64,000 nucleotides of DNA, taken from assembly GCA_013297885.1 (NCBI GenBank), contig JAAFIR010000009.1:67001-131000 (forward strand), in the 5' to 3' direction. Of this stretch, positions 7,263 to 58,003 are shown in pieces. The position numbers and the translations under genes were made by a program. Each line of letters starts with the position of its first letter. The first letter of the stretch is position 1. This DNA is from Leptospirales bacterium. GTDB taxonomy: Bacteria > Spirochaetota > Leptospiria > Leptospirales > Leptospiraceae. The notes below the pieces were generated by a model, which saw only the letters and a program-made list of their open reading frames with translations, was not told where the DNA came from and searched no databases.

Positions 7263-7391
7263 GGGCGTTTCTTTCATTTGCTTACTTCTGTCTCACGATA
7301 GTATCATCACAAAGGAGCAAATGAAAGTCGGGCTTTACGCTACTTCTCACCCTGAAAAAAAAGGGTGAGAAACGCTTCAATCCCTAACGCT
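7263..7391 (+). repeat. Structured dispersed repeat, copy 1
   Basis: This copy begins GGGCGTTT and ends CCCTAACGCT. It has two inverted repeats: CTTTCATTTGCT (7271-7282) with AGCAAATGAAAG (7316-7327), and TTCTCACCCT (7344-7353) with AGGGTGAGAA (7362-7371). The second hairpin is flanked by the family modules CGGGCTTTACGCTACTTCT and AGAAACGCTTCAATC. It fills the gap between the cytochrome gene and the sensor kinase gene and could also terminate transcription. No coding potential is seen. Confidence 0.8.
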
Positions 7392-15457: not shown

Positions 15458-15720
15458 CGTACATCTCCTGTAAATGTAATGACAAGGATTCTCATTTATT
15501 AAAAAACAAAGTCAAGCAGAAACAATTTTTTTTTAATAAATTTTTTTATTTTTTTTTATTTTATTTAAACCTTTTTTTTAAAGTCCAATCTTTACAAAAA
15601 CTAACCTTAAAAATTGTGGATTTATAAAGTGAATTATCAAATATTTAAGCTTATAGATTATGGCGAATTTTTCCATCATTTTTTTTTTGTATCTTGATTT
15701 TATATTCTACAAATGGAAAA

Positions 15721-15797
15721 ACCACGCTTTACGCTACTTCTTAAATCTTTTGACTAAAGTCAAAAGATTTAAGAAACGCTACAATCGTTTTCGCTAG
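15721..15797 (+). repeat. Structured dispersed repeat, copy 2 (minimal form)
   Basis: This is a compact copy that lacks the GGGCG outer end. A perfect inverted repeat has 18-base arms at 15738-15755 and 15758-15775 separated by two bases. It is flanked by ACCACGCTTTACGCTAC on the left and ACGCTACAATCGTTTTCGCT on the right. The right-hand module is the family's ACGCTTCAATC with one change. No coding frame is seen. Confidence 0.8.
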
Positions 15798-15868
15798 TAT
15801 TGAAAAATTCTTTAGGTAATCAAAACCGATAATTAGTTTTTATTCACAAAAATTTTTTTGTATTCAAA

Positions 15869-16025
15869 AGCGAGAGGGATTGAAGCGAAAATCCTTTTGC
15901 ATAAAGTTTTCAATTTATTTTAAACCAAATAGAATTTGCAAAAGATTGAAGCAAAAAGCCCGATTTTTTTATGTCAAAACAAATAAGTTTTTTTTAAATA
16001 AAAATTTACATAAAAAAACTCGCCC
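15869..16025 (-). repeat. Structured dispersed repeat, copy 3
   Basis: In the orientation opposite to copy 2, this copy runs from AGCGAGAGGGATTGAAGCG to ACTCGCCC. Two GATTGAAGC modules (15879-15887 and 15944-15952) flank CCTTTTGC (15893-15900) and GCAAAAG (15938-15944), which can pair. AAAGCCCG follows the second module, as in the other copies. Confidence 0.75.
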
Positions 16026-24417: not shown

Positions 24418-24537
24418 GGGCGATACTCGCTTCGCTGCTTCGCTGCTTCGCTGCTGTGCAGCTTTGCGAGTCCGTGCTTTTCGCTGCAATCTTTTTTTAA
24501 ACAATAAAAAAGGATTTCCGCTTCAATCACTATCGCT
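24418..24537 (+). repeat. Structured dispersed repeat, copy 4 with tandem octamer
   Basis: From GGGCGATACTCGC to CACTATCGCT. Three exact tandem copies of TTCGCTGC (24431-24454) sit between ACTCGC and GCGAGT, which can pair. The family modules CGTGCTTTTCGCTGCAATC and TTTCCGCTTCAATCACT follow. This copy is richer in G+C than anything around it. Confidence 0.8.
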
Positions 24538-30920: not shown

Positions 30921-31067
30921 GCGTTAGAGATTGAAACGGGGTCAAAAAATTTTTTATAAAATTTTTTGACCAGAGTTGAAAGCTCGACCTTTAATTCATG
31001 AAGAATTTAAACTAGTTATAATTCGTCATTTTTAAATTTTTATTCTTCTTGAATTAAGGGGAACGCC
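30921..31067 (-). repeat. Structured dispersed repeat, copy 5
   Basis: In the minus orientation it runs from GCGTTAGAGATTGAAACG to AACGCC. A perfect stem has 14-base arms GGTCAAAAAATTTT (30940-30953) and its complement (30958-30971), loop 4. The module AGAGTTGAAAGCTCGACC follows. An outer pair AATTCATGAAGAAT with ATTCTTCTTGAATT pairs at 13 of 14 positions. Confidence 0.75.
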
Positions 31068-32915: not shown

Positions 32916-33032
32916 GGGCGAATTTTTGCTAACGCCCCCTGGGCTGCAAAAACCGTGCTTTTCGCTACTTCTTCAAGTAAAGTGAGACTTAAGTCTCACG
33001 TTACTTGAAGAAACGCTTCAATCACTTTCGCT
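32916..33032 (+). repeat. Structured dispersed repeat, copy 6
   Basis: From GGGCGAATTTTTGCTAACGCC to CACTTTCGCT. The module TTTTCGCTACTTCT overlaps the left arm of a near-perfect 44-bp hairpin (32969-32990 and 32991-33012; 21 of 22 positions pair), followed by the module ACGCTTCAATCACT. It lies between two convergent genes, so it may double as a transcription terminator. Confidence 0.85.
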
Positions 33033-35364: not shown

Positions 35365-35697
35365 TGAAACCCAAATAATTTTTTTTATAATTATATAATA
35401 TCAATTACACTTATTTATTAATATTCAATTTTATCATATCAGTGGAGATTTTCCAATTCAGTGAAGAAAGCGTTAGTGATTGAAGCGTTTCTGAATATTT
35501 GGACTTTAGTCCAAGCGGAGGCAAAATCTTGCCGAGCTTGCCAGTTGCCGCAGGAAGCGAATAGCAAACTGGCAACTGCGATGCAGTTAAATTCAGAAGT
35601 AGCGTAAAGCACGACTTTCATTTACTATCGCTTGACGATAGTAAATGAAAGAAACGCCCAAACATTATCAGAAAAGTAAATTATTCTTTTTAAACTT
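35365..35697. other. Intergenic region between convergent genes
   Basis: 333 bases, mostly occupied by repeat copy 7 (35468-35659). A 60-codon frame on the minus strand (35439-35621) lies wholly inside the repeat and reads as an accident of the hairpins. The rest is AT-rich and shows no support for a gene. Confidence 0.6.
35468..35659 (-). repeat. Structured dispersed repeat, copy 7 (longest, compound)
   Basis: In minus orientation it runs from AAGCGTTAGTGATTGAAGCG to AACGCCC. It contains a nested set of stems: TTCTGAAT with ATTCAGAA (outer), GGACT-TT-AGTCC, TTGCCAGTTGCC with GGCAACTG-type partners, and CTTTCATTTACTATCG with CGATAGTAAATGAAAG (16-base arms, perfect, loop 5). The module GTAGCGTAAAGCACGA is the reverse complement of the usual CGTGCTTTACGCTAC. 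Confidence 0.85.
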
Positions 35698-50120: not shown

Positions 50121-50152
50121 TTGTTTTTATGATAAATTTTTCAATTCTATGT

Positions 50153-50319
50153 GAAAAGGGATTGACTCGGCGTTAAAAAATTTTATATAAAATTTTTTTA
50201 CGAAAGAGGAAAGCCAGTTTTTTTTACCTAACCCAATTTTATTTGTTTTGAATAAAGTTTCTCTTTAGCCCCTTCCTTCACAGTGAAGGGGAAGTGGGTT
50301 AGGTAAAGAAAATTCGCCC
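50153..50319 (-). repeat. Structured dispersed repeat, copy 8
   Basis: Runs from GAAAAGGGATTGACTCGGCGTTAAAAAATTTT to ATTCGCCC. The GTTAAAAAATTTT / AAAATTTTTTTAC stem matches that of copy 5. A second perfect stem pairs TTTACCTAACCCA (50223-50235) with TGGGTTAGGTAAA (50295-50307); inside it CCTTCAC (50275-50281) pairs with GTGAAGG (50283-50289). Confidence 0.75.
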
Positions 50320-53732: not shown

Positions 53733-54119
53733 TTTTTTTAATTATATATTGTTAAATAAATTTGAAAAATTTATTTTTTTTAAAAAATTTATTTTGCGAA
53801 TCTAAAATATTTTTTATTACAATTTAAACTAGAAGTACTTGCAAAAGGGATTGAAGCGGAAATCCTTTTGTCTTAATATTTTATTCTTTAAAAATAATAT
53901 TTTTACAAAAGATTGAAGCGTAAAGCCCAGTTTTTTATTTCTAGAACTGAGTAGCATCCAAGCGAGGTTCGAAAAATAAAAAATTTGCCAAAATAATCAA
54001 AAAAAAATTCAATATTAAACAATTTATTTTCATAAAAAAAAAGTTTAAATTTATGAACTCTTCAATCCTAATTAGAATAATTTACTTGAAAATTAAGCTT
54101 ATTTGAAAAACCTAAAAAA
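53733..54119. other. Intergenic region with repeat copy 9
   Basis: 387 bases between same-strand operons. Repeat copy 9 fills 53841-53990. The remainder is poly-A/T. No promoter for yajC could be assigned with confidence. Confidence 0.6.
53841..53990 (-). repeat. Structured dispersed repeat, copy 9
   Basis: The word pair GGGATTGAAGCGGAAATCC (53848-53866) and AAAGATTGAAGCGTAAAGCCC brackets CAAAAG/CTTTTG-type pairing bases, as in copies 3 and 10. The downstream end (GAGCATCC, AGCGAGG) departs from the usual GGGCG, so the boundary is uncertain. Confidence 0.65.
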
Positions 54120-57885: not shown

Positions 57886-58003
57886 GGGCGAGTTTTTGCA
57901 AATGCAAAAAACGGGCTTTTTGCTACAATCTTTTGCAATTCTTCCTTATTTATTAAATAACCAAAAAATATACAAAAGTATTTCCGCTTCAATCCCTCTC
58001 GCT
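57886..58003 (+). repeat. Structured dispersed repeat, copy 10
   Basis: The most complete short copy: GGGCGAG, TTTTTGCA-AA-TGCAAAAA hairpin (57893-57910), module ACGGGCTTTTTGCTACAATC, a bracket CTTTTGCA with ACAAAAG, module TTTCCGCTTCAATCCCT, end CTCGCT. It follows the sec terminator directly. Confidence 0.8.

Follow-up and report, generated by a model that had tools for sequence, protein, structure and literature searches.

The window, by which we mean the whole 64,000-nucleotide stretch of DNA analysed here, carries a perfect 18-bp hairpin with a two-nucleotide loop, its arms (15738–15755 and 15758–15775) being 100% complementary. This hairpin is the arm H1 of a complete element (Table 1), the minus strand of which is predicted to form a three-way junction composed of a closing stem (P0), H1 with conserved G·A mismatches, and a second hairpin (H2). 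A sequence-only reading of the region had assigned the hairpin to a repeat family, which our results bear out; the three longest perfect stems of the window all lie in family members. It had also taken this copy for a minimal one, reduced to the stem and lacking the GGGCG outer end. That end is present as TGGCG about 70 bases from the hairpin, since the plus strand holds TGGCGAATTTTTCCAT at 15661–15676 and ATGGAAAAA at 15713–15721, and it is joined on through a stem of 9 bp whose loop spans 36 nt. The stem alone, proposed as the core of the family, is not what is conserved: conservation lies in the modules flanking H1, in the mismatches and in P0 as closing stem, and the sequences of H1 and H2 vary widely and stay paired. 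We agree with the earlier view that so long a perfect stem points to constraint or a recent origin. Among stems with loops of 2–6 nt, the window holds perfect ones of 18 bp (15738), 16 bp (35615) and 14 bp (30940), the last two likewise inside elements of the hairpin's family; 60 first-order Markov simulations of the window, with the same loop sizes, gave 31 stems of 12 bp or more and a maximum of 15.

Table 1. Parts of the hairpin's element and other elements of the family in the 64-kb window.
Feature	Position	Strand	Description	Basis
Complete element, predicted three-way junction (copy 2 of the sequence-only reading)	15663..15794	-		P0 arms by script; DNA minimum-energy fold
H1 apical stem	15738..15775	-	18 perfect pairs, 2-nt loop	arm complementarity
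P0 closing stem, 5′ arm	15790..15794	-	GCGAA	DNA fold, covariation
P0 closing stem, 3′ arm	15663..15667	-	TTCGC	DNA fold, covariation
P1, 5′ arm	15786..15788	-	ACG	three P1 positions paired in 34/34 distinct rows
P1, 3′ arm	15724..15726	-	CGT	three P1 positions paired in 34/34 distinct rows
H2 hairpin	15668..15721	-	9-bp stem, 36-nt loop; missed by the sequence-only reading	sequence
Conserved 5′ flank motif	15795..15809	-	AATTTTTCAATACTA; recurs between DUF1564 genes and their elements	motif search
Neighbouring element, head-to-head with 15663–15794	15870..16023	+	P0 GCGAG/CTCGC; Flavo-1 54.6 bits	
Element	7265..7390	-	P0 GCGTT/AACGC	
Element	24420..24536	-	P0 GCGAT/ATCGC; Flavo-1 58.4 bits	
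Element	30921..31066	+	P0 GCGTT/AACGC	
Element	32918..33031	-	P0 GCGAA/TTCGC	
Element	35470..35657	+	P0 GCGTT/AACGC; H2 a 16-bp perfect stem (35615–35651)	
Element	50151..50317	+	P0 GTGAA/TTCGC, one T·G wobble	R1 match with filters off
Element	53841..53988	+	P0 GCAAA/TTTGC; Flavo-1 49.4 bits	
Element	57888..58002	-	P0 GCGAG/CTCGC; Flavo-1 45.6 bits	

When the minus strand of 15656–15800 is folded as DNA, the three-way junction is the minimum-energy structure (−27.8 kcal/mol, z −6.2); it accounts for 0.7% of the ensemble, whose centroid retains P0, P1 and P2. Folded as RNA, the same copy reaches z −5.3 and prefers other lower stems, i.e., the covarying P0–P3 fold is optimal for it under DNA and not under RNA energy rules. 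Our model R1, built on 37 copies all from the window's genome, gives the window copy 88.4 bits at 15720–15795 (the copy is itself among the 37), and Rfam Flavo-1 (RF01705) gives it 38.4 bits at 15716–15799, under the gathering score of 42, which four other window elements exceed (45.6–58.4 bits). P0 is exact, in five kinds, in nine of the ten window elements, these nine being 114–188 nt long, and has a single wobble in the tenth. In the element at 35470–35657, H1 holds an extra inserted stretch with hairpins of its own; insertions in the arms of the elements seem to be tolerated.

The fold is shared across the family. The modules GATTGnAGCG and GnAGCGnAAAGC stand on either side of H1, the form GATTGnAG / GnAGCGnAAAGC, with the conserved H1 structure, being present in the window copy and in alignment A1, which comprises 37 cores (34 distinct) from 40 parsed copies, three with a different H1 (L038, L042 and L044) having been excluded. 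Two P1 columns are paired in all 34 distinct type-A copies through three and four Watson–Crick types, and one A·G, two G·A and one T·T mismatch are invariant across them. Paired cells amount to 96.9%, against 86.8% in column shuffles and 34–45% in slid controls, the structure having been drawn from the same sequences and thus having an advantage over the slid controls. P0 covaries as a closing stem: H2 was located without using the P0 word, the words before H1 and after H2 were compared afterwards, and all five pairs form in 48 of 66 sampled elements (four of five in 11 more), compared with 15.9 on average and at most 27 over 10,000 permutations. The words differ from copy to copy, e.g., GCGAA/TTCGC, GCGTT/AACGC, GCGAT/ATCGC, GCGAG/CTCGC, GCAAA/TTTGC and GAGTT/AACTC.

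Copies and their placement in the genome

Copy number was estimated from a 464-kb sample made of the window and twenty 20-kb stretches whose choice followed contig size and position, regardless of content. After 6 of 72 matches were dropped as antisense echoes, R1 contributed 66 elements, and the search with filters off supplied one more, a window element (50150), for a total of 67; extrapolated, this is about 650 elements per genome. The whole-genome R1 list has at least 142 matches among 150 candidates scored, and a search of the genome with 15700–15815 returned at least 41 matches among the best 40 of 222 candidates, one of them an antisense echo of the hairpin.

The elements are intergenic and unoriented. 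None of the 65 classable cores lies inside a predicted ORF, in DNA that is 89% coding; one core shares 36 nt with an ORF end, and a few predicted ORF starts may be reached by H2. Flanking genes occur as ++ (19), −− (21), −+ (14) and +− (11), with no preference for sense or antisense, and because the contexts are so mixed the elements are not general 5′ or 3′ regulatory elements of genes. Close copies are mostly inverted: among pairs less than 2.5 kb apart in the sample, 14 of 16 are inverted (10 head-to-head, 4 tail-to-tail) and 2 direct, and among the matches listed genome-wide, which overlap the sample, 14 of 15 (10 head-to-head, 4 tail-to-tail, 1 direct). A 1.5-kb cut would give 8 of 8 head-to-head, leaving 2 head-to-head, 4 tail-to-tail and 2 direct pairs at 1.5–2.5 kb; that cut is our own choice and flattering, and the 2.5-kb figure is used instead.

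Six copies (L010, L011 and L016–L019) lie at contig ends or within 1.1 kb of them, and some of these are probably assembly duplicates, since two end pairs share exact 127-bp stretches. Contigs C10, C19, C26, C49, C58 and C69 end in or near an element, i.e., the assembly breaks at the element family. Elsewhere in the same genome, L207:18426–18523 matches Rfam n00280, a Clostridioides difficile sRNA family (70.5 vs. 65.2 bits).

Signs of movement were sought in several ways. The window's right-hand gene was found in three same-genus genomes (56, 56 and 54% identical), in none of them beside the window's left-hand neighbours; R1 has no match there on the side corresponding to the element's position, and a weak match of 20.7 bits falls roughly 1 kb beyond the other end of the gene (L141). 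Two further flanking genes, of three tried in all, gave no conserved gene pair in relatives. Among the 54 of 67 elements with defined ends there is no target-site duplication, the longest shared flank word being 6.80 against 6.77 when permuted, and no replication-strand bias follows from GC skew (14:12 and 7:6). A search of the genome for Y1 transposases and integron-type integrases placed no mobility enzyme beside an element; the P0 arms pair, but no parent transposase was found among these families. The genome's only Y1/REP-associated-transposase-like gene (140 aa; L049, G000:C42:66004–66300) is followed by CAGTGGGT..ACCCACTG palindromes, which form a separate REP-like family and also occur inside the H2 loops of some elements (e.g., L043). 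A RAYT was rejected as the mobiliser, this one Y1_Tnp gene being flanked by the different palindrome and, by eye, by no element.

DUF1564 genes and occurrence elsewhere

Some element copies adjoin a repeated segment that carries a gene of DUF1564 (PF07600), a Leptospira family with 22 matches in the window's genome and up to 49 in a relative. Together with DUF1564, a full-length Lsa66-like match that stays below its cut-off (393 of 700 bits) suggests that the genome is that of a Leptospirales spirochaete. We refetched 20 of the 22 loci, leaving out two under the cut-off (L172 and L173). Of these 20, 10 have a same-strand R1 element at most 450 nt downstream, compared with 28 of 382 other genes (p 1.6e-6), and a strict fold descriptor finds one downstream in sense in 12 of 20, compared with 31 of 382 controls (p 3.3e-8), the 20 genes being paralogues and not independent. 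At each of the three other positions, the descriptor gives 0 of 20 for DUF1564 and 33, 29 and 25 of 382 for the controls. By one method or the other, 14 of the 20 genes have a downstream same-strand element, and L243 has one by eye only; the five remaining loci include one with only 162 nt downstream (L239) and one broken gene (L241). In most pairs of DUF1564 loci the DNA similarity ends before the element and the element types differ, L224/L229 being an exception. The elements after DUF1564 genes at L232, L233, L235, L236 and L243 belong, by eye, to a divergent subtype, in which P0 and P1 are kept and H1 is replaced by a longer and apparently branched arm.

Ahead of solo elements, at a spacing that varies, stands the motif AATTTTTCAATAC; it exceeds the 99th percentile of shuffles in 28 of 67. 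In the spacers between DUF1564 genes and their elements it occurs, at 10 bits or more, 21 times in 3.3 kb in sense and never in antisense, against 0.14 per kb in control intergenic DNA. Our reading of DUF1564 as a putative double ribbon–helix–helix DNA-binding protein draws on sub-threshold matches to an Arc-like repressor family, with E 0.18 in one of three DUF1564 proteins and E 0.075 in one of two plasmid proteins (see below); neither set has a ribbon–helix–helix Pfam match. One report relays for a PF07600 protein the annotation “mobile element protein” and a predicted signalling role (PMC12457778). The open-licence literature, in the portions available, gives no DUF1564 function backed by tests (PMC12457778, PMC5722270).

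The link between elements and DUF1564 holds in the window's genome and in some same-genus relatives. In relatives the descriptor finds a downstream-sense element at 6 of 28 DUF1564 loci, two of which were chosen for having an element, and 4 elements at other positions; the top same-genus loci have one in 4 of 6 cases. Strict downstream elements occur at 0 of 20 DUF1564 loci of other genera, and DUF1564 occurs in 2 of 20 element stretches of relatives (0.8–1.5 kb each), and the partnership is therefore not general. Neither the plasmids described below (two proteins) nor the viral contigs gave a DUF1564 match.

The element itself reaches further. Three same-genus genomes have 5, 4 and 10 R1 matches and two other relatives 2 and 1, and 25 of 30 relatives have none, in each case among the best 150 candidates and with a model derived from the window's genome. 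Flavo-1 matches occur in 8 of 120 genomes of the phylum, the window's genome counted. Full folds read in other genomes of the phylum close with CGGAC/GTCCG, GCGTT/AACGC, GGGTT/AACCC or GCGCC/GGCGC, assigned by script or by eye; L470 lacks the full fold and the first copy at L471 has an imperfect P0. Outside the phylum, five Paraclostridium bifermentans plasmids (19–32 kb) carry the fold, with Flavo-1 scores of 56–64 bits for the main element, P0 GAGTT/AACTC and, in one of them (L294), a P1 mismatch. Together they have eight Flavo-1 matches, three plasmids having head-to-head pairs 2.2–2.9 kb apart with an amidase gene between them and two a single element. In four annotated cases a gene weakly resembling DNA-binding ones comes after the element, and AT-rich repeats, seen by eye, lie in between; this gene was not found in viral contigs. 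Among the latter, three pattern scans gave 2, 116 and 36 stretches, amounting to 150 distinct loci, of which 2 have the strict full fold; Rfam Flavo-1 matches 2 of 2 and 1 of 13 of the viral stretches scanned. A phage collection gave no match to the Flavo-1 consensus.

Three loci of other genomes place elements among further genes. Locus L469 of G058 has three copies or fragments, all oriented alike and spaced by about 2 kb, with RHS-like and small downstream ORFs between them in the manner of a cassette array; one copy passes the strict fold test, one was accepted by eye and one lacks the 3′ part, and “RHS-like” is our own reading of ORFs that gave no Pfam match. G115 has a protein with RHS repeat and Amidase_2 domains between two elements. 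At L474 (G132:C1:1877800–1881200), two elements of the same orientation have a gene with an FGE-sulfatase domain ahead of them and a Phd/YefM antitoxin gene behind; diversity-generating retroelements can act on FGE-sulfatase proteins as targets.

What the element may be

The elements look like dispersed remains or ends of a mobile element. We hypothesize that they are MITE-like, non-autonomous mobile repeats recognized by structure, a reading in which mobility is inferred and to which we give about an even chance. The folded single strand, rather than its sequence, would be recognized by a mobility or DNA-processing enzyme. DUF1564 would bind the AATTTTTCAATAC repeats beside the fold and belong to a parent unit, from which the solo copies would have dispersed in the window's lineage. 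The stem may have stayed long and perfect either because the fold is required for copying or because hairpin-templated correction repaired it. A broader proposal, which we regard as possible and clearly speculative, is that Flavo-1 makes up one half of a folded terminus belonging to a class of mobile DNA not described before. Such a class would have as its end a strand-specific three-way junction recognized by shape, work in inverted pairs, move accessory cargo and, in spirochaetes, include DUF1564 as an accessory DNA-binding protein, its solo ends having been amplified to hundreds in the window's species.

It is also conceivable, if unlikely, that the elements are a family of non-coding RNA genes that are transcribed and whose three-way junction is a functional RNA, as the filing of Flavo-1 under sRNA in Rfam implies. 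A strand-specific structure with conserved G·A mismatches would suit such a family, as would the z-score of the RNA fold and the low copy number, one to four, among the other seven matching genomes of the phylum. GNRA-like H2 loops of some relatives suit RNA equally well: H2 is TGGC-GAAA-GCCA, with a C(GAAA)G loop, in four of the five Paraclostridium elements, with GATA in the fifth, and the loop is C(GTAA)G in G136. Against it stand some 650 copies, oriented either way relative to genes, and the optimality of the covarying fold of the window copy under DNA rules only. Wobble pairs cut both ways and are only suggestive of RNA or DNA. In the model-fitted alignment G·U exceeds A·C by 7 to 2 in P1–P3 and by 14 to 5 in H1; these wobbles are, however, scarce (n = 462 and 842 cells), and a cruder stem count reverses the balance to 6 G·T against 18 A·C, of which 15 A·C cells in H1 may be ascribed to a putative fixed mismatch of one subtype. 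In Flavobacterium psychrophilum, Flavo-1 matches are reported to map to transcribed regions in either sense or antisense orientation, and many map to no such region (PMC9723704), a pattern that argues against a consistent transcript.

We consider it quite doubtful that the elements are recombination sites of gene cassettes, akin to the attC sites of integrons, of which one strand would be read by structure and which would bound or follow cargo genes. The persistence of structure while sequence drifts recalls attC, and the position downstream of DUF1564 genes with matching orientation, the three same-orientation copies of G058 and the head-to-head pairs around the plasmid amidase gene could all be seen in this light. 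Against this, the core boxes are absent (GTTRRRY in 0 and RYYYAAC in 3 of 67 elements at the 5′ end), the copies are mostly solo and not arrayed, and close pairs are inverted rather than direct. The integron integrase model TIGR02249 gave six weak matches, none over the curated cut-off, and all 14 control genomes likewise had weak ones.

A site of plasmid or phage replication or partition, either a hairpin for single-strand initiation or a centromere-like site later dispersed in chromosomes, appears improbable. It would fit the presence on five P. bifermentans plasmids, the DNA-binding-like gene after the element in the four annotated cases, a Rep3 initiator gene about 2.2 kb from the element in one plasmid and the strict fold in two viral loci. 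The other four plasmid records have no annotated replication gene, although their tables may be incomplete, the phage collection speaks against it, and hundreds of copies per chromosome would be left unexplained. Finally, a chance hairpin or an assembly artefact has a negligible probability, the copies at contig ends notwithstanding, since no simulated window had a stem longer than 15 bp, P0 covaries and the window copy sits deep inside its contig.

Comparison with known systems

The element shares traits with REPs, MITEs and attC sites and departs from each of them in one or more of the defining features tested. Like REP/BIME sequences with their RAYTs, it is intergenic, palindromic and present in hundreds of copies, with near copies often inverted. 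REPs, at 20–40 bp, differ from it in length (PMC3733652, PMC2817692). Unlike them, the element has no universal tag (GTAG at 32 and CGTC at 6 of 67 cores), and the RAYT-like gene of the genome is accompanied by another palindrome. The likeness to MITEs lies in short, non-coding, intergenic sequences in many copies, with a possible parent unit; the differences are the absence of a target-site duplication, ends that pair by covariation instead of a fixed terminal repeat and the transposase, which was not found among the families searched. With attC sites of integrons, in which structure is kept as sequence drifts, the element has in common a folded single strand of conserved structure and variable sequence, sometimes placed after a gene and oriented like it; it differs in having no core boxes and no IntI over the cut-off, and in being mostly solo.

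The closest known relative is Flavo-1, which has the same conserved modules and internal mismatches. The Rfam entry covers H1 alone, under the type sRNA, and is listed for Bacteroidetes. In PMC9029176, Flavo-1 stands under “most abundant small RNAs”, with its function left blank, and the open-licence literature, in the portions available, gives no account of P0/H2, a three-way junction or DUF1564 together with Flavo-1 (PMC2864571 without supplements, PMC9723704, PMC9029176). As an arm of a larger covarying fold with the habits of a mobile element, Flavo-1 passes from an orphan annotation to a testable hypothesis, and its partner gene family in one genus gives DUF1564 a lead. Taken together, the element is an extended form of Flavo-1, to which P0 and H2 add a three-way junction, with about 650 copies in the window's genome and occurrences in this phylum, on plasmids of Clostridia and in viral contigs.
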